DNA of 43,557 bases from Armatimonadia bacterium (lineage in GTDB: Bacteria; Armatimonadota; Zipacnadia; Zipacnadales; JABUFB01), in contig JBDKVB010000096.1 of the NCBI GenBank assembly GCA_039679385.1, forward strand, positions 1 to 43,557, read 5' to 3'. The position numbers and the translations under genes were made by a program. Below the pieces are notes generated by a model. The model was not told where the DNA came from and made no database searches. It saw only the letters and a program-made list of their open reading frames with translations. Below are positions 5,970 to 29,316 of the stretch, in pieces; position 1 is the stretch's first letter; every line of letters starts with the position of its first letter.

Positions 5970-7907
5970 CTAGCCGCTGCGTCCAGCCAGTATGCTTACG
6001 GTTTTCTGGCGAAGGGATTGAGCGATCCGCGACCAAGCCTGGTCGCGCCTATTCCAGTGCCTGCTGCTGACAGGATGTCCATCAGTGGGCAAGGCTTGGA
6101 GTGCGCCAAAGGGAAGGTCCTGCCAGACGCAGTCTCGGATGATCACGGGCACAACCGTTGCCTCGCCTGCCTGGTGACGCTCCAGTGCTCTTTGTGCTTC
6201 GACCTTGTAGCAGTAGTCGGAGCCGATGAAGTCGGCGCTGACCAAGAGCAAGACTAACTCAGCCGTCTCGAGGTGCTCACTGATCTCGCTGCGCCATTCG
6301 TCACCAGGCCCCATTCTGTCATCGTACCAGAGCTCTACCAGCTTGCTGCGTCGGAGCGGGCTCAGCTGTGCCAACAACTCGTCGAGCAGCCGTCTGTCCT
6401 TGTGCGAATAGGATATGAACACTTGGACCGGCCGAGAGGGCGGCGCGCATGGCGCGGGACTCCGCATCGTTGTCAGGTAGTCGCGGTCCTCAATCACCTT
6501 GAGTATCGTCGACCTCGTCGACGGGCGAAGCCGGTCGTCAGCAACCTCACGCATTCGACGCAGCCCATCTACCACCTGTCGGCCGTGGCGCTTGGTCAAC
6601 TCCCAGAGCTTCTGTACGGTCTCCCTCTCGTCCGCCTCTGGGAGCCAATCCACAACCATCGCCAGTTCCGACACCATCCTTGTGTAGAACTCCTCCTGGC
6701 TGTAGCTCTCAAAGTCCGAGGCCTGTTGGAGGTAGTCGATCACAGCCCCCTTGACCCTGCCATCGGGAACGTCTTGCTTGACGAAGTCAACTGCGTAGAA
6801 CCCTGCGTCGTCACAGTCCTCCAACCCGGCAGCGTATTCGGAAAACCTCCGGTCGATGCATTGTGAACACCCCCCACAGTGGGTGCTCTGGCCCCCAGTC
6901 TTCCTCGTCTTGCTGCAGGAGACTGAGCTGGACAGCAGATCAGACTGCCCACGTTCGCGCAGCAACGCCATGGTGTCGGTCTTGGTCCTCCAGAGGAACG
7001 GCGTCTCGATGCTAAACGGGGCTCCACTGACCTCCGAGAACAGCTCCGCCAGCAGCGCGATGGTTCGTGGGTGCGTTGTCCTACTTGCCCGTGCGTTCAT
7101 GAGGTCTTGCCGTCTCGCGAAGTTCAGCGATGTGATTCCATTCTCGTACACGTGAATGCGGTTGGTTCCGACGGAACTGGCGCACGCGAATGCGATGGTC
7201 GCGTAGAGCAAGAAGCGGCTGCGCTGCGTCTCCTCGTGCTGGCTTGAGCCTATCAGACCGCACTTGAAGGGCACCGGCGTCACTCTGTTGGGGAACCTCT
7301 CGTCCAGCGCCCTAATCAGTCCATCCTGTGTCCTCGCGATGGAGCTCTGCGACCTGTGACTGACCAGCATGACCGGGCCACCGGTGGAGGAGAGCTGCTC
7401 GACGGCTCCCGCCAATGAGTCCACACCACCCGAGAGCAGAGTCACCTCGCTTCCTGTCCTGCAAACACACCCCGGACGGTCAAAGAGGTTCTCTGGGACG
7501 TCGTTGGTGCTTCTCTCGAACCGCAGCTCCACACGAGCTTCACCTGACAGGAACAGGAGCAAGTCGCTGAGCTGTTGCCCGGCCTCTGACGTGGACCAGA
7601 AGTCGAAGTCACGAACACGGAACCAGAACTCCAGATTCCTGCCCCACGAGTGGTACTCGACAGCGTCCCTGTGGCCTCTCGGGATCAGGCGGTCCGCGCA
7701 GTAGATGTAGGACGCTATCTCGATGAGGTCTTTGGCCCTAGCCGACAGGTGATAGACGCTGTTGATGAACCCGGGAAGGCCAATCCGCACATTAGGAACT
7801 ACTGCCTGCCCGCGTCGCCACTCGAGCCGGTGAATCGCTGCATCGCCGTGGCCCCCTGCTCCGGGGTTCGCTCCACCGCACAGGATCACGTGAGGGTGCC
7901 GGGTCAT
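5970..7907 (-). CDS. QueC-like PP-loop enzyme fused to a TIR domain; candidate immune protein
   Basis: The 645-residue protein has two recognisable halves. Residues 1-470 are a QueC-like (7-cyano-7-deazaguanine synthase superfamily) module. It has an N-terminal extension of the kind found in the Qat/CBASS-associated branch (VILCGG at 7-12, IYCADRLIPR at 68-77), the PP-loop LLSGGVDSLAG (157-167), and a zinc knuckle C331, C344, C347, C350 within STHCGGCSQCIDRRFS. Residues 494-635 are a TIR domain (VFISYSHKD, ELWYDDRMGPGDEW), with E570 in SDYCYKVEAQRA at the position of the NADase glutamate. Housekeeping QueC is about 220-240 residues and has no TIR. The ATG overlaps the stop of the upstream gene as ATGA, so translation is coupled. 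GC is visibly lower than in neighbours (7081-7140 is 33/60 G+C, against 41/60 at 3661-3720). Seen: both domains and motifs. Inferred: nucleobase or ATP-dependent modification coupled to NAD+ depletion in antiphage defence. Confidence 0.88.
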   Translation of the reverse strand: MTRHPHVILCGGANPGAGGHGDAAIHRLEWRRGQAVVPNVRIGLPGFINSVYHLSARAKDLIEIASYIYCADRLIPRGHRDAVEYHSWGRNLEFWFRVRDFDFWSTSEAGQQLSDLLLFLSGEARVELRFERSTNDVPENLFDRPGCVCRTGSEVTLLSGGVDSLAGAVEQLSSTGGPVMLVSHRSQSSIARTQDGLIRALDERFPNRVTPVPFKCGLIGSSQHEETQRSRFLLYATIAFACASSVGTNRIHVYENGITSLNFARRQDLMNARASRTTHPRTIALLAELFSEVSGAPFSIETPFLWRTKTDTMALLRERGQSDLLSSSVSCSKTRKTGGQSTHCGGCSQCIDRRFSEYAAGLEDCDDAGFYAVDFVKQDVPDGRVKGAVIDYLQQASDFESYSQEEFYTRMVSELAMVVDWLPEADERETVQKLWELTKRHGRQVVDGLRRMREVADDRLRPSTRSTILKVIEDRDYLTTMRSPAPCAPPSRPVQVFISYSHKDRRLLDELLAQLSPLRRSKLVELWYDDRMGPGDEWRSEISEHLETAELVLLLVSADFIGSDYCYKVEAQRALERHQAGEATVVPVIIRDCVWQDLPFGALQALPTDGHPVSSRHWNRRDQAWSRIAQSLRQKTVSILAGRSG

Positions 7908-8680
7908 GCCCTTGACCCCTCCCTCGTCATCTCATCTCGCAGCTTCGTCAGCGCGTAGTTGAAAACCCCCCGAATGCTGGACTTGGGCGGCATGCCCTTC
8001 TGTGCGTGCTTGTTGAACCATCCCGCAGCGAGAGACTGTGTGATCTTCGAAGTCTCGAGCGCGTGCTGAGACACGTCGGCCAGGTAACTCTGAAGGTCGG
8101 CTCGTACCTGGTCGCTGTGCGAGAGCGAGGGGCCAACGGCGGACAGCTCACGCTCCAGGAAATACCTCAGATAGCGCTCTACAATCTTGGAGAAGAACAA
8201 GCGCGAGAGTTCGCAGAAGCCTCGACCGCTCTGCAGCGCGTCCCAGGTGCTGTCCGCGCAGCCGAAGCCTTCGAACAGGCTGACGTCCTGAACGCGATGC
8301 GTCTGGTACCACAAGGCCAACGCATCGGCTCCCGCGGCCGCTGACAGCTCGCGGTACTCGGGAGACGAGTCGATCGATGCGAGGCGAGAACGCAGGACTC
8401 GCACGAGGCGCAAGGGCGTCAGTGGCCCGCCGTCGTCCAGTCCCGGCATACCGCTGAGGCCACCCGTTCTCGCCCGCACGGACAACTCAACGAGGAAACT
8501 GAAGGCTTCAAGCGGTGCAGGGTCATCCTGGAACCACCTAAGCCTACTGCGTGTCGCTCGTAGGGTCTCGCCAGCGATGGTGCCGACGTCGTACTCGCCG
8601 CCCGTCAGCGACCCTACATCGGCCACGATGCTGCGCCATCGCTTGCTCTTTGGGAGTACACCGATCCGCTCGTGACCCAT
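7904..8680 (-). CDS. Unrecognised partner protein of the QueC-TIR fusion
   Basis: This 258-residue, mostly alpha-helical protein has no signal peptide, membrane segment or catalytic motif I can name. Its N-terminus is Met-Gly (MGHERIGVLPKSKRW), so Met removal would expose Gly; QatB proteins, the partners of QueC-like QatC, also tend to begin Met-Gly as I recall them. A conserved-looking stretch lies at 151-180 (SGRGFCELSRLFFS, then ERYLRYFLERE), followed near the C-terminus by a polar region with GWFNKHAQKGMPP. The start has GAGGGGTGA about 5 bases upstream. The stop overlaps the next start as ATGA, which makes this the first gene of a two-gene operon. Both genes share lower GC than the surroundings. 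It could be the sensor, or the substrate that the QueC-like enzyme modifies. This role is inferred from position and from the analogy with Qat, not from sequence identity. Confidence 0.8.
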   Translation of the reverse strand: MGHERIGVLPKSKRWRSIVADVGSLTGGEYDVGTIAGETLRATRSRLRWFQDDPAPLEAFSFLVELSVRARTGGLSGMPGLDDGGPLTPLRLVRVLRSRLASIDSSPEYRELSAAAGADALALWYQTHRVQDVSLFEGFGCADSTWDALQSGRGFCELSRLFFSKIVERYLRYFLERELSAVGPSLSHSDQVRADLQSYLADVSQHALETSKITQSLAAGWFNKHAQKGMPPKSSIRGVFNYALTKLRDEMTREGSRA

Positions 8681-9059: not shown

Positions 9060-9384
9060 ATGAAGCAGCTCTTTGCCCGCGAGACGCTCAGCCAGGTGTA
9101 CGAAGGAATGAAGGGTGAGAACCGGCTCCGGCGAGTGCTGGGGCCGGTCGGTCTCACCTCCCTCGGGATCGGGTGCGTCATCGGCGCCGGGATCTTCGCC
9201 ATCACCGGTCTCGTCGCCCATGACAAGACGGGACCGGCGCTCATCGTCTCCTTCGTGGTCGCCGGTGTGGCTGGTGATCGGCATGGTGGTCTACTTCGGC
9301 TACGGCCGCCGCCACAGCCACCTGGGCCGGAGACTCGCGCAGGGCGAAGAGACCCAACTCGCCTCCGAGGAATCGGGCGAGTAG
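9060..9384 (+). pseudogene. Amino-acid permease (cationic amino-acid transporter type) with most of the middle deleted
   Basis: The N-terminal 70 or so residues are those of an APC-superfamily amino-acid permease: an amphipathic leader, then RRVLGPVGLTSLGIGCVIG, AGIFAITG and LIVSFVVAGVA, the first membrane segments. At about 9261-9275 the frame changes. The new frame reads VWLVIGMVVYFGYGRRHS to a stop at 9384, the last membrane helix and tail of the same family. Full permeases are about 480-500 residues, so roughly 380-400 are missing. Without the frame change the first frame runs on as nonsense into the next gene. At the junction, one stretch (around GCCGGTGTGGCTGG) fits both flanks, which suggests deletion between short identical sequences. 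No function is expected. An assembly collapse is the alternative explanation. Confidence 0.82.
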
Positions 9385-9429
9385 GCTCAGACAGGCACTC
9401 AGCGACGACCCACCAGTGCACCTTCACCC

Positions 9430-9464
9430 AACAGCCACCCTTCTCCCGGGTGGCTGTTTCGTCT
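9430..9464 (+). terminator. Rho-independent terminator
   Basis: AACAGCCACCC (9430-9440) pairs perfectly with GGGTGGCTGTT (9448-9458) around a 7-base loop and is followed by TCGTCT. It probably ended the permease transcript and now separates the permease remnant from the next gene. Confidence 0.75.
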
Positions 9465-9552
9465 CTGCATGCTCCTCGGCAGGAACCTGCCCTGTCGTGC
9501 CGAAGGAGAGGAGGCCGGCTTACGGTTTGGTGCCACTGGGGAGGCGAGGACT

Positions 9553-12168
9553 GTGAGAGTGTGCCCTTTCCGGCCAGGATTGCTGCTGGTGCCGCTCCTT
9601 GCCTGGGCCCAGCCTACGGACACAGAGGCAAGGCAGCAGCAGATGCGCGAGTACGTGGCGGCCGAGCGCGTTTGGGCAGAAGACGGCCTCACCGCGTCCA
9701 TCTCCGACTGCCACACCGACGTCCCCTTCCTCGATGACTACCGTCCTTCCGAGTACCTGCCCCTGGCTGAGATGCCGCGTGCCCGAGCCCGTGGCTTCCT
9801 CCTCGTATCGCCGGGTGTCTACGAGATGGACGCCGCCGGGTTCTGTCTCCACGCCGGAGCCTACCGGCCCTCTCGTGGCGATGGCTATGCACCGGGGCCC
9901 CTTGTCGGGCGAGCCTCAGGGCCGGTCCACGAGGTCCTGTGGAACTGGGCCGAGCACCCCGAGATCAAGCAGCGGGAGGTCCAGTGCCTGCTCTGGGCAC
10001 TGGTGGGACGGATGGAAGTGGATCGCCTGAAGCCGGAGATCCAGCGGACCGCCAGGGCGCTGCTGAGCGAGAAGGGACTTGCGGCGGCGAGGACCCAGCA
10101 ACGGGGTCCGCGTCCGGAGCAGCCGGAGCTGATCAGTCCCGAGTTGCAGGCTGAGCTCGAGGCTGCCGGGGCCCAGATGAACACAGACACTGCGCAGCCC
10201 AGGCAGGAGATGGAGGCGGCCTCCAAGGCCTTCGAGGAACTCACCGCACGCCTCGAAGGGGGAGAGCAGGTCGACCAGAAAGAGCTTGCAGCCGCTCTCG
10301 AGAGAGTGTTGAAGGCACAGCAAGCCGTGCTGCAGCCGACTGCACAGGCCGTGACCCGGATTCAGGCTGCTGCCGCGAAGCTGGAGGAGGCTCTGTCCGC
10401 ACTGAGCGCACCCTACAGTGAACTGGAGCGCGTCGCCGTTCCGGAGGGCAACCCGGATCCGCCCGCAGGTAGCCGCAAGATCCCCACCGGACGCTGGTCC
10501 TATCAGGCCGGCGGGGTCTTCGTGCGCTACCTGCCCGAAGACTACACCCGAGTCCGCGTCGAGGTCTCGCTGCCACCGGCCTTCACGGTCCGGCGCGATG
10601 CTCTGGGCCGAATCTGCGACCTGACGAGCGAAGCCGGTAGCGCGGTTAGCTTCGCCTGGGCAGAGCCTGCTGTGCCACTCGCGGTGCCCGGCGACGACGC
10701 GGTACGCGGCTATGCACTCACAAGCCTGCAGGTCACGAAGTCAGGCACGAAGGGAGCGCCGACGGCGGTCTCCGGCTGGGCCTTCGTCGGTGTGCCCTCG
10801 GGGAAAGGGGCGCCGCAGGACGCCGGTGCCTTCACGGGTGTCGAGGCGAAATATCGTGCGGCGCTGCAGCACCGCGCTGAGGTGCTTGACCTGGTGAAGG
10901 CTCTGTCGAAGCCCACCGCCGGGGCCGGTGAGGCACAGACACAGGTCTCGCTGGAGAGCCTTGCGGACGCCCTGGACCTGGGAAGCCTGGCAGAGGCGCT
11001 CCGACCGATGGCCAAGAGCTCGAAGGGGTCTGCCGGAGCGTTGCGAGTGGTCCAGGAGGCCTGGCAGGCTGCCCTCTGTGAGCGCGTCGCCGACCTTCCC
11101 GGGGCGCAGGCAAGCCCAACTTCCGGGCCATCCCCACAGACCTCAAACCGCCCGTGCTCACCAGGCCCTGCAGGGCCGCAAGTCACACTGGAGCCGAGAG
11201 TCCGCTTCGCCGCCTTCTCCGGGATGGGCGGCCTCGGGCTGACGCTGACTCAGAGGCAGATCGGTCCCGGCCTGCCGACCTTCGACCCCGGTGCCAGCGT
11301 GGTTACGCCGGGCAACTCGGCTCGCCAGCGGCTGGGAATCGGGCCGGTACAGAGTCCGGTGGCCGAGCCGAAGGAGATGCTCCAGAAGGCCGTCGATAGC
11401 TGCGACTTTCTGAAGGGCCTGCTGGACGTCTTCAATGGCCTGACGGACCCGCTCGGCTTCCTCATGGAGAAGCTCGGGCTGGGTGCCGGTGGGCTGCCGG
11501 GGATGATGCTGGACGGGATGCTGGGCTGGATCTTCGATGCGGCAGCGGGGATCGCACAGGCCCTCGGAGGAGATCCGCCGCGCGCCGACTTCCGCGAGTT
11601 CACGCTGCCACCTCCGCCGGTCTTGCCCCAGTACGTGGCCGGTGAAGGGCTGTCTGAGGACAGGGCACGGGCCGGCAACGATGCAGCCTCGGCCTTCCTG
11701 CGGATGTACGAGTCGCTGCGAGCCGCCCAGATCGCCGGTGATCGTCTGGGAGGTGCCCTGGAGGCCTGCGACGAGGACTGGGCTCGGCGCCAGGCGAGGG
11801 CCTTCGTCTATCACAAGCGCGTGGCCGGTCTTCGTATGGTGACCGCCGCAGACCGGTACAGCGCGCTCCTCAAGGTGATGGAGCAGGAGGGTGCCGAGGA
11901 CCGGCGACTCACTGAAGCCGAAGTGGCGTCCTGGCAGGCAAGGCTACGCACCGAGGGTTTCAACGAGGCTTCCCTCAAGGCGGCACGGCAACTGGGGCTC
12001 AGCGAGGAGGAGATCGAGGCTGCTCGCCTACGTCGCCTGGCAGTAACGTGGGAGGACCTGCCTGACGAGGGCCTCCTCTCGACGGGCAGCGCTGTGGCGA
12101 CCAGCCTTCGGGCAGTGGGCAGGCACTGGAGTCGGCTGCCGGAGCTTCCGGCGCCAGAGATGGAGTAG
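9553..12168 (+). CDS. Secreted protein of unknown function, 871 residues
   Basis: The GTG at 9553 is chosen because GAGGCGAGGA lies just upstream and a signal peptide follows directly (GLLLVPLLAWAQ, cleavage near residue 19-20). An earlier in-frame start at 9469 would put this signal in the interior. Residues 100-155 contain AGAYRPSRGDGYAP and WAEHPEIKQREVQCLLWAL; I have seen this type of segment in uncharacterised exported proteins of environmental bacteria, with no assigned function. Residues 195-290 are Glu/Gln/Ala-rich and probably a coiled coil. A beta-rich part follows, then a Pro/Ser-rich linker near residue 530, a Gly/Leu/Met-rich hydrophobic stretch near 640-690 (GLGAGGLPGMMLDGMLGWIF), and a helical C-terminus. 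The amphipathic central stretch could contact membranes. No enzyme motif is seen. Confidence 0.75.
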   Translation: MRVCPFRPGLLLVPLLAWAQPTDTEARQQQMREYVAAERVWAEDGLTASISDCHTDVPFLDDYRPSEYLPLAEMPRARARGFLLVSPGVYEMDAAGFCLHAGAYRPSRGDGYAPGPLVGRASGPVHEVLWNWAEHPEIKQREVQCLLWALVGRMEVDRLKPEIQRTARALLSEKGLAAARTQQRGPRPEQPELISPELQAELEAAGAQMNTDTAQPRQEMEAASKAFEELTARLEGGEQVDQKELAAALERVLKAQQAVLQPTAQAVTRIQAAAAKLEEALSALSAPYSELERVAVPEGNPDPPAGSRKIPTGRWSYQAGGVFVRYLPEDYTRVRVEVSLPPAFTVRRDALGRICDLTSEAGSAVSFAWAEPAVPLAVPGDDAVRGYALTSLQVTKSGTKGAPTAVSGWAFVGVPSGKGAPQDAGAFTGVEAKYRAALQHRAEVLDLVKALSKPTAGAGEAQTQVSLESLADALDLGSLAEALRPMAKSSKGSAGALRVVQEAWQAALCERVADLPGAQASPTSGPSPQTSNRPCSPGPAGPQVTLEPRVRFAAFSGMGGLGLTLTQRQIGPGLPTFDPGASVVTPGNSARQRLGIGPVQSPVAEPKEMLQKAVDSCDFLKGLLDVFNGLTDPLGFLMEKLGLGAGGLPGMMLDGMLGWIFDAAAGIAQALGGDPPRADFREFTLPPPPVLPQYVAGEGLSEDRARAGNDAASAFLRMYESLRAAQIAGDRLGGALEACDEDWARRQARAFVYHKRVAGLRMVTAADRYSALLKVMEQEGAEDRRLTEAEVASWQARLRTEGFNEASLKAARQLGLSEEEIEAARLRRLAVTWEDLPDEGLLSTGSAVATSLRAVGRHWSRLPELPAPEME

Positions 12169-27195: not shown

Positions 27196-27384
27196 ATACC
27201 ACAACGCCACCTCACTCCCTGCCTTCGGCATCCTCTCCACGCGTGGAAAGCAACTGTGTTGCTCGTCAAGCCGTCTCGGGCACGGGGTGGTGGCAAGGTG
27301 CTGCTTGCGCCATGATCGCGTTGAGCATGGTTAGCAGCCTGAGCACGGCTTTGTCTTTGGAGACGGCAGAAAGAAAGCGTGACT

Positions 27385-29316
27385 ATGGCCAGACCACAAC
27401 TATGGACAAGAGACTTCGTGCTCGTTTCCCTCGTCAATTTCCTGGTTGCTCTGAACTTCTACTTACTGATGATAGTTGTCTCCGGGTATGCAATGGAGCG
27501 ATTCGGCGCCTCACCAAGTGAGGCGGGCCTTTCCGCCAGCATCTTCATCATCGGCGGACTCGCGGCACGTCTTCTGTGCGGGAAGTGGATCGGGCGCGTT
27601 GGCTACAAGAGGGCGCTCTACGTAGGGGTCATCCTGAATCTGCTCATGACGGTGTCGTACTTTGGAGCCAATAGTTTCGTCCTCCTGCTCGCGGTCCGCT
27701 TGCTCCATGGCGCGGCCTTTGGGATTACCACGACGACAACGGCGACGATTGTTGGCAGTATCGTTCCGAAGGAAAGAAGCGGCGAAGGGATTGGCTATTA
27801 TGGTTTGAGCCAGATCTTGGCAACCGCCGTCGGTCCCTTCCTGGGCATATTCATCAGTCAGCGTGGCAGTTTCGGCATGATCTTCGCCGCCTGCGCAGTT
27901 GCCTCGGCAATCAGCCTTGTGGTCACGCCCTTGCTATCCATAGCTGGCACGCAGTTGACACGAGAGCAGTTGGCGGAGATGAAGGGGTTCAAGCTGAGCA
28001 ATCTTGTTGAGGCCAGAGTCATCCCGATCTCAACCGTCGCCATGCTGATTTTCCTGTGCTATTCCAGCGTCGTCTCTTTCCTGACCGTGTATGCCAAGCA
28101 AATCCGTCTGGTAGATGCAGCCAGCTTCTTCTTTCTGGTGTATGCGGTGGTGATCCTGATTTCGAGGCCGTTCGTTGGCCGCCTGTTTGACGTGAAGGGC
28201 GAGAACTCGATCATGTACTCAGCGATCGCAGCCTTTGCTGTTGGCATGGTTCTGTTCAGCCAGGCCCATCATGGGTACACACTGCTGATGGCCGGAGGTC
28301 TGATCGGTCTTGGCTTTGGGGCCATACAGTCCAGCACTCAGGCCATTTCTGTCAAAATGACGCCGCGGCATCGCATGGGGCTGGCGAACTCAACCTATTA
28401 CACGCTGTCAGACGTGGGAATGGGAGTTGGCCCCTTGATGGTCGGGTTTGTGGTCCCCTTCGCTGGTTACCGGGGCATGTATATGGTTGTGGCAGGTGTG
28501 GCGGCGGCGTGCCTGTTGCTGTACTACGTGCTGCATGGGAGGAAGGAGCCGGCATCCCTGGTGGGCATGGAAGGCGAAGCTGGCTACCCCCTCAGTGGCC
28601 GGCAACCTCCAGAGCCGTGTGTACTGACGATCAGTCGACAACTCGGGAGTGGCGGTGCTCTCATCGGACGCGAGCTTGCCCGCCGGCTCGGCATCTCTTG
28701 CTTTGACCGTGAGATACTCCACCGCGCCGCCCTGCAACTCGATGCCTCCGAGGACTTACTCGAGGACCAGGACGAGAGGATCAGGACAGTATGGGAGTCG
28801 GTGCTCCAGTCTCTCGCGGCAGGAAACCCTGAGAGCCTGTATTTTCCTCCGCCTCTGAACATCCCGACGGACGGCGCACTGCGTCAGGTCGAGGCGGCAG
28901 TCATCGCGCACATCGCCCGGACGCAAAGCGCGATCGTCGTGGGCCGAGGTGGCATCCACACTCTACAGACGCATCCCAGACATATCAGTGTCTTTCTCCA
29001 TGCGCCCACTGGCTTCCGGCAGCACCGTGTGCAGGAGTTGTACCATGTGTCTGCCCGCGAAGCCCAGGAGAGGCTTGAGTGCAGCGATCGTGACCGGGCT
29101 CGGTACCACGCCTCGCTCTCGGGCCGGGACTGGGGGGATGCCAGACAGTACGACCTGTGCCTGGATGTGGCCTCATTGGGGGTCGCGGTAGCTGTTGAGA
29201 TGCTGCTCCGATGCTGGCACAGCCGTTTCGGCACCGACTGCGAGGGGAATGAGGAGAGGGCTAGCGCGAACTCGCTGCTTCCCGCTCTTGGCGAACGCCC
29301 TCAGCGAACAGCCTAG
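27385..29316 (+). CDS. MFS transporter fused to a cytidylate-kinase-like domain
   Basis: A 643-residue two-part protein. Residues 1-386 are a 12-helix major-facilitator transporter of the drug/proton-type branch: FIIGGLAARLLCGKWIGRVG in the 2-3 loop, RLLHGAAFGITTT in helix 4, and VILISRPFVGRLFDVKGE in the second half. A linker follows, then at about 411-610 a Cytidylate_kin2-type P-loop domain (CVLTISRQLGSGGALIGREL, ISCFDREILHRAA, AIVVGRGGIHTL, ISVFLHAPTGFRQHRVQEL). Transported solute and kinase substrate are unknown. GC is below that of the neighbours (27841-27900 is 34/60). The ATG at 27385 was preferred over the in-frame GTG at 27379; no strong ribosome site supports either. The reading frame passes through the join without interruption, so this is a true fusion unless the assembly is wrong. 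Confidence 0.88.
   Translation: MARPQLWTRDFVLVSLVNFLVALNFYLLMIVVSGYAMERFGASPSEAGLSASIFIIGGLAARLLCGKWIGRVGYKRALYVGVILNLLMTVSYFGANSFVLLLAVRLLHGAAFGITTTTTATIVGSIVPKERSGEGIGYYGLSQILATAVGPFLGIFISQRGSFGMIFAACAVASAISLVVTPLLSIAGTQLTREQLAEMKGFKLSNLVEARVIPISTVAMLIFLCYSSVVSFLTVYAKQIRLVDAASFFFLVYAVVILISRPFVGRLFDVKGENSIMYSAIAAFAVGMVLFSQAHHGYTLLMAGGLIGLGFGAIQSSTQAISVKMTPRHRMGLANSTYYTLSDVGMGVGPLMVGFVVPFAGYRGMYMVVAGVAAACLLLYYVLHGRKEPASLVGMEGEAGYPLSGRQPPEPCVLTISRQLGSGGALIGRELARRLGISCFDREILHRAALQLDASEDLLEDQDERIRTVWESVLQSLAAGNPESLYFPPPLNIPTDGALRQVEAAVIAHIARTQSAIVVGRGGIHTLQTHPRHISVFLHAPTGFRQHRVQELYHVSAREAQERLECSDRDRARYHASLSGRDWGDARQYDLCLDVASLGVAVAVEMLLRCWHSRFGTDCEGNEERASANSLLPALGERPQRTA

Follow-up and report, generated by a model that had tools for sequence, protein, structure and literature searches.

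A QatBC-type gene pair carrying a TIR domain on QatC, a probable immune module from a family with varied C-terminal domains

We analyze a 43,557-nucleotide stretch of an Armatimonadia bacterium (contig JBDKVB010000096.1, C96 in our numbering; hereafter the window, meaning this stretch at its full length), from a source genome of 5.6 Mb in 184 contigs, and within it a pair of overlapping open reading frames (ORFs) on the minus strand at 5970-8680. We propose, with a probability of about 0.72, that this locus is a two-gene immune module of the QatBC type in which a TIR NADase effector is fused to the C-terminus of QatC. It most likely serves as an abortive-infection switch, for which we infer both the defensive role and the chemistry. 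A gene of 258 codons (8680..7904) precedes one of 645 (7907..5970), an ATGA overlap joins the two, and both ATG codons have a purine-rich, ribosome-binding-like stretch upstream. The main features are as follows.

7904..8680, minus strand: QatB-like partner gene, 258 amino acids, all-helical, N-terminus MGHERIGVLPKSKRW (ORF, AlphaFold2 model, best PDB match QatB 9y01_A, hhalign)
8636..8680, minus strand: N-terminal MG-x7-P-x4-W tail (Gly2, Pro10, Trp15), the predicted QatC substrate end (conservation and the QatB parallel)
5970..7907, minus strand: QatC-TIR fusion gene, 645 amino acids (ORF, profile matches, AlphaFold2 model)
6486..7898, minus strand: complete QatC part with N- and C-terminal QatC extensions, residues 4-474 (structural match to 9y01_B)
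7416..7433, minus strand: SGGVDS pyrophosphate loop, residues 159-164 (S159, G160, G161, D163 and S164 kept in 137/137 family members)
7068..7082, minus strand: RTTHP motif, residues 276-280 (corresponds in QatC to the substrate region with Thr278/Thr280 and to the loop that binds QatB)
6858..6917, minus strand: zinc cysteines C331, C344, C347 and C350 (invariant, 137/137)
5979..6437, minus strand: TIR domain, residues 491-643 (Pfam TIR_2, PADLOC ThsB1, structural match)
6198..6200, minus strand: Glu570, putative NADase catalytic glutamate within SDYCYKVE (kept in 4/4 TIR-fused members)

The QatC-TIR fusion and its QatB-like partner

Profiles and an AlphaFold2 model indicate that the 645-residue protein comprises a complete QatC and, after it, a TIR domain. 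Residues 53-391 match QatC in PADLOC (E 4e-44) and in NCBIfam (NF041925, E 1e-49, at 169.1 bits and thus below the 280-bit equivalog cut-off), residues 495-635 match Pfam TIR_2 (E 9e-17) and PADLOC ThsB1 (E 2e-49), and a Pfam QueC match is also obtained. When the fusion is used to search PDB sequences, QatC is returned first (E 3e-26) and TIR proteins next. In the model, built from 24 aligned fusion homologues with a predicted local distance difference test score (pLDDT) of 79, the QatC part superposes on residues 2-457 of the crystal QatC 9y01_B (Z 33.3, 407 residues, root-mean-square deviation 3.2), and the TIR part matches the plant TIR domains of RPV1 and RUN1 (Z 14.6 and 14.2). A preliminary description, made from the sequence alone, had proposed a QueC-like domain fused to TIR and translationally coupled to the 258-residue gene; the matches in PADLOC, NCBIfam, PDB and Pfam bear out the fusion and narrow its first half to QatC, the ATGA overlap confirms the coupling, and the SGGVDS loop, the four cysteines and Glu570 lie where that description had placed them.

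Across 137 family members SGGxDS, Arg229, Glu255-Asn256-Gly257, RTTHP and the four zinc cysteines are near-invariant (within RTTHP, R276 and H279 are kept in 137/137, T277 in 128/137 and T278 in 133/137), and these active-site residues are common also to 13 canonical QatC proteins. In the Qat system itself, S156A/S161A in QatC abolishes defence, and the Thr278/Thr280 region has a role in substrate and QatB binding (PMC13279940). By homology to QatC, RTTHP replaces the Tyr/Asp substrate-recognition residues of canonical QueC (PMC13279940, PMC13329287), and the threonine substitutions suggest a substrate different from deazaguanine, as has been argued for QatC (PMC13279940). We rejected a housekeeping QueC identity because the active site differs and a true QueC sits beside QueD elsewhere in the genome. 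By analogy with TIR biochemistry, Glu570 is a candidate catalytic residue.

We identify the 258-residue partner, with moderate to high confidence, as a strongly diverged QatB. In an alignment of 40 relatives M1, G2, P10 and W15 never vary, and H3, R5 and L9 hardly do; QatB for its part requires its MGTS N-terminus, where G2D abolishes defence, and a segment with conserved Pro16 and Trp18 (PMC13279940). The AlphaFold2 model (pLDDT 87, predicted template-modeling score 0.87) places ten helices after a disordered N-terminus, ten being the helix count given for QatB (PMC13279940). Its best structural matches are QatB 9y01_A (Z 11.7) and 9y02_A (Z 11.2), over 194 of about 215 residues, with the next unrelated fold at Z 6.5, and hhalign against a profile of nine canonical QatB proteins gives a probability of 75% (E 2.5e-5, 156 columns). 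Several points weigh against the assignment. Helical bundles can reach Z 13 by chance, so the fold match alone is insufficient; identity to QatB is about 10%; Foldseek returns an E-value of 0.36, though with a probability of 0.95; and the first helix is preceded by a tail of about 14 residues, compared with 30-90 in QatB, which bears on its reach into the active site. It is fold, operon position and N-terminus taken together that identify a QatB relative. Searches of Pfam, PADLOC, NCBIfam, PHROGs and PDB with the sequence gave nothing useful, so that the partner is unrecognized by sequence models, as had been described, and recognizable by its fold, position and N-terminus. A weak "lonely Cys" match (E 0.006), with 15 bits where the cut-off is 200, was dismissed. 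With the partner a diverged QatB and no novel class of protein, the module amounts to QatBC with an effector added.

Two other QatB loci were observed. The source genome holds a second QatB-QatC locus of canonical type on contig C94:48278-50477 (G000; L017 6237-8436), where QatB starts MGTSTAQRSPRSPEW and QatC, of 451 amino acids, has no fused domain; with neither QatA nor QatD alongside, it is a natural QatBC-only unit. A lone QatB-like gene without QatC is found at L016 7391-8182 (G080). Its likely start, MARRSSSLGPFPKTHRW, has Ala in the place of Gly at position 2, an alternative start further upstream is possible, and about 4.5 kb downstream lies a gene for a large ATPase-like protein with a fused TIR domain.

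Conserved pairing and varied C-terminal domains

The partner gene is present in 6/291 genomes of the phylum, and the pair has its nearest relative in another genome from its order (G264). When the QatC core was used to scan 84,980 species genomes, 264 relatives came to light, 80 of which were fetched; viral-contig scans yielded 55 and 80 loci. A set of 76 non-redundant genome loci was found through QatC alone and is hence unbiased as to partner; in 75 of them a QatB-like gene lies directly upstream of QatC, mostly with a 4-base overlap; the single exception is a QatC gene split in two in the assembly, with the QatB-like gene before the first half. The reverse test, starting from the partner, places QatC downstream of 55/55 QatB-like genes. 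The pairing of the fusion with the 258-residue family, which the preliminary description had offered as a check on its proposal, does therefore recur.

Gly2 follows the start codon in all 71 readable partner N-termini, 69 of which read M/L-G-H, as against 27 of 577 other ORFs of the same loci (4.7%). This statistic is taken solely from the QatC-seeded genome set, since the MGH count from the QatB-like-seeded viral scan is biased by a scan pattern that itself contained MGH. No homologue of QatA (KAP-family ATPase) or QatD (TatD-family nuclease) was found in the window or in any family locus by a search that finds both in canonical qatABCD controls. No member of the QatB-like family turned up in the phage-isolate collection, and among the plasmids searched the family occurs in Leptospira noguchii alone. 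At two loci (L014 1198-3125 and L058 568-2433) the QatC gene lies in two overlapping frames, through real decay or assembly error.

The C-terminal domain of QatC varies. Clustering of 132 non-redundant C-terminal extensions of QatC relatives yields TIR (4 members), nuclease (34), a trypsin-like protease pair and a Trans_reg_C winged helix (4; E 7e-10), beside winged-helix-like or unknown groups (45, 25 and others). One nuclease representative matches Pfam DpnII-MboI (E 2e-9) and the proteases match Trypsin_2 (E 9e-15). These domains retain their catalytic motifs: the two proteases have H, D and GxSGG, each of the four TIRs has SxYCYx(V/I)E, and the nucleases have D..ExK (27/34 by strict pattern, the remaining 7 by eye). 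The TIR fusion, which the preliminary description had named as a point of difference from known systems, is real and also a rare effector choice (4/132) within a much larger family. The effector-bearing half of that family spans Armatimonadota, Chloroflexota, Planctomycetota, Verrucomicrobiota, Bacteroidota, Bacillota, Poribacteria and a Leptospira plasmid.

When 45 cores are placed in a tree, the two trypsin-bearing members fall within a well-supported group of nuclease-bearing ones, and the four TIR members adjoin nuclease-bearing members in two places. FastTree suggested two independent TIR gains; we do not claim them, as a single origin is not rejected (approximately unbiased test, p-AU 0.22). 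The trypsin-bearing QatC genes (L055 7962-10025 and L057 7962-10010, from Oscillospiraceae and another Bacillota) may represent a protease-effector version. In L061, L056, L070, L076 and their relatives, the C-terminal 100-250 residues are winged-helix-like or without a family match, and a DNA-binding end is no obvious effector.

Genomic surroundings, known systems and competing explanations

Family neighborhoods are rich in defence genes, with a large contrast to a small control set. For each locus the four nearest neighbor genes were compared with PADLOC-DB, with matches taken at E <= 1e-15. The 109 neighbors of mostly effector-type members gave 157 model matches, the 101 neighbors of mostly winged-helix members gave 73, and 68 control ORFs from scattered stretches of other genomes of the same phylum gave 3; PADLOC has several models per gene, so these are match counts and not gene counts, and the control is smaller and drawn from other genomes. 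Around effector-type members lie two PglZ, two type IIG restriction enzymes, type I restriction, DpdF, PDC-S68 and HEC-05, among others, and around winged-helix members type I, II and III restriction-modification, SoFic, SduA and AbiEii. Downstream of both TIR-bearing loci in Poribacteria lies a type IIG restriction enzyme.

Proximity to defence genes, a further check offered by the preliminary description, holds for the relatives and not for the window locus itself. The other window genes that were checked are metabolic or repair genes, and the pair is flanked by a plus-strand gene for a large NPCBM-containing protein and by a permease remnant:

9060..9275 recognizable, remnant 9060-9737, plus strand: truncated amino-acid permease remnant, outside the module (BcaP-type transporter match)

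The first approximately 70 residues of this remnant alone match BcaP-type transporters, the frame being lost thereafter. The guanine-cytosine (GC) content of the pair is 0.614 compared with 0.652 in the rest of the window, and GC at third codon positions (GC3) is about 0.75 compared with 0.83-0.85 in four flanking genes. Given the lower GC and GC3, the metabolic surroundings and the permease remnant, the pair looks like an isolated acquired insert among metabolic genes; lower GC and a wrecked permease next door had already been remarked on in the preliminary description. Elsewhere in the window, 27379-29316 is a low-GC gene in which an MFS transporter is fused to a cytidylate-kinase-like domain.

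The pair shares with qatABCD a full-length QatC fold (Z 33.3), the catalytic residues, an overlapping upstream QatB-like partner and a Gly2-Pro-Trp tail. It differs in lacking QatA and QatD, in carrying an effector domain on the QatC C-terminus, and in its partner, which reads MGH where QatB reads MGTS, has the shorter tail and is recognized by no sequence model. QatBC alone protects E. coli against lambda, for which the catalytic residues of QatC and Gly2 of QatB are needed; against some phages QatA and QatD can be dispensed with, and QatB has no active site (PMC13279940). In a neighborhood survey, only about one in three QatC-cluster genes had QatA and QatD as neighbors (PMC13329287). Type IV CBASS (cyclic-oligonucleotide-based antiphage signaling system) likewise joins a QueC-family enzyme, Cap9, to a partner, its CD-NTase substrate, which exposes an N-terminal glycine to which Cap9 attaches a 7-deazaguanine (PMC13279940; PMC11996544). 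Our partner is by contrast all-helical, the substrate site carries the QatC-type Thr where Cap9 has Tyr/Asp, Cap10 was not found with the pair, and no CD-NTase was seen, either as a Pfam or PADLOC match in the partner or among several window ORFs checked by Pfam. Homologue searches and these Pfam and PADLOC checks agree with the preliminary description that QatA, QatD and CD-NTase are absent. The pair, though QatBC-like, does not have the defining composition of qatABCD, nor does it have the CD-NTase found in type IV CBASS.

TIR NADase systems (Thoeris ThsB, SPARTA, TIR-STING) share a TIR domain with the conserved glutamate (ThsB1 model, E 2e-49), whereas here the TIR is a C-terminal domain on QatC and no ThsA, Argonaute or STING partner was seen. 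A pair on the Leptospira noguchii plasmid p1_LIP1709037 (WP_243818872 and WP_243818873, both annotated as hypothetical proteins) is likewise QatB-like plus QatC, at 37% and 39% identity, with an MGHERLG start and a 4-base overlap; its C-terminus is a DpnII/MboI-type nuclease instead of TIR. No named system with this composition was found in PADLOC-DB or the literature searched, which excluded preprints and most subscription papers, so an unpublished or paywalled name is possible. That literature holds no description of QatC fused to an effector, and two 2026 QueC-family papers make no mention of TIR. The preliminary description had suggested an undescribed module; this stands insofar as no such name was found, and gives way insofar as the partner is no new class and QatBC alone was already known to suffice for defence (PMC13279940). 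We rate QueC-family immunity with a fused, interchangeable effector as a new variation on the Qat/QueC theme.

Weighing against an immune reading are the metabolic neighbors of the window locus and the winged-helix-like or unknown C-terminal groups, which make up well over half of the relatives and are not obvious toxins. Those same C-terminal domains, with the Pfam QueC match, would fit a nucleoside-modification or regulatory module, with a base made by a QueC-like enzyme to which a C-terminal domain has been added for regulation. We consider this very improbable: as in QatC, other residues stand in place of the canonical QueC substrate residues (PMC13279940, PMC13329287), a separate QueD-QueC pair is present in the genome, and the relatives' neighborhoods are defence-rich. 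It is also unlikely that the pair is a toxin-antitoxin or general stress module, not phage-specific, in which the QatB-like protein restrains a QatC-TIR toxin. The overlapping two-gene unit, the toxin-like domain on its second gene and the near-obligate pairing are what such a module would show, but it leaves the conserved QatC active site and the invariant Gly2 unexplained, and in Qat, QatB is needed for defence and is not an inhibitor (PMC13279940).

The TIR could also act as Thoeris ThsB does, making a nucleotide signal that activates an effector encoded elsewhere instead of depleting NAD+. ThsB1 is indeed the best match of the TIR part in the defence library. We nevertheless hold such signaling to be rather unlikely, as sister systems swap the TIR for a nuclease or protease, which would act directly, and no ThsA-like gene appears among the window ORFs examined, a distant ThsA elsewhere in the genome not having been sought.

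Proposed mechanism and implications

We propose that the QatBC-type module with its fused TIR works as follows. The QatB-like and QatC parts would form a complex, and after removal of the methionine the Gly2 terminus of the QatB-like protein would enter the QatC active site. QatC may then use ATP to modify or monitor Gly2, in the manner of Cap9 in type IV CBASS and in line with what has been proposed for QatBC. A phage trigger would change the Gly2/QatC state and thereby release or oligomerize the TIR, which would consume NAD+, halting the infected cell and aborting the infection. The invariant Gly2 and intact QatC active site suggest that the N-terminus of the QatB-like protein is subject to similar chemistry or sensing, and the C-terminal TIR with its glutamate points to NAD+ consumption as the output. 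The separate housekeeping QueD-QueC pair elsewhere in the source genome means that a deazaguanine route is present in the host. Sister systems would use the same QatBC switch with a DpnII/MboI-type nuclease or a trypsin-like protease as output.

It is reasonably probable, in our judgment, that the locus belongs to a widespread, unnamed two-gene immune class in which a QatBC N-terminal-modification switch directly gates interchangeable effectors fused to QatC (TIR NADase, nuclease, protease, winged helix). The 2026 QatBC structure paper leaves open how QatBC turns infection into defence, and likewise what reaction QatC carries out (PMC13279940). Recognizable output domains on QatC, always accompanied by a QatB that keeps Gly2, make the switch testable by simple readouts: NAD+ loss for the TIR, DNA cutting for the nuclease and proteolysis for the trypsin, under Gly2 or QatC active-site control. 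The family further contributes a wide range of probable defence loci, which sequence models now leave annotated as hypothetical. If true, the interchangeable-effector class would show that QatBC is a sensor-switch and what its output is.

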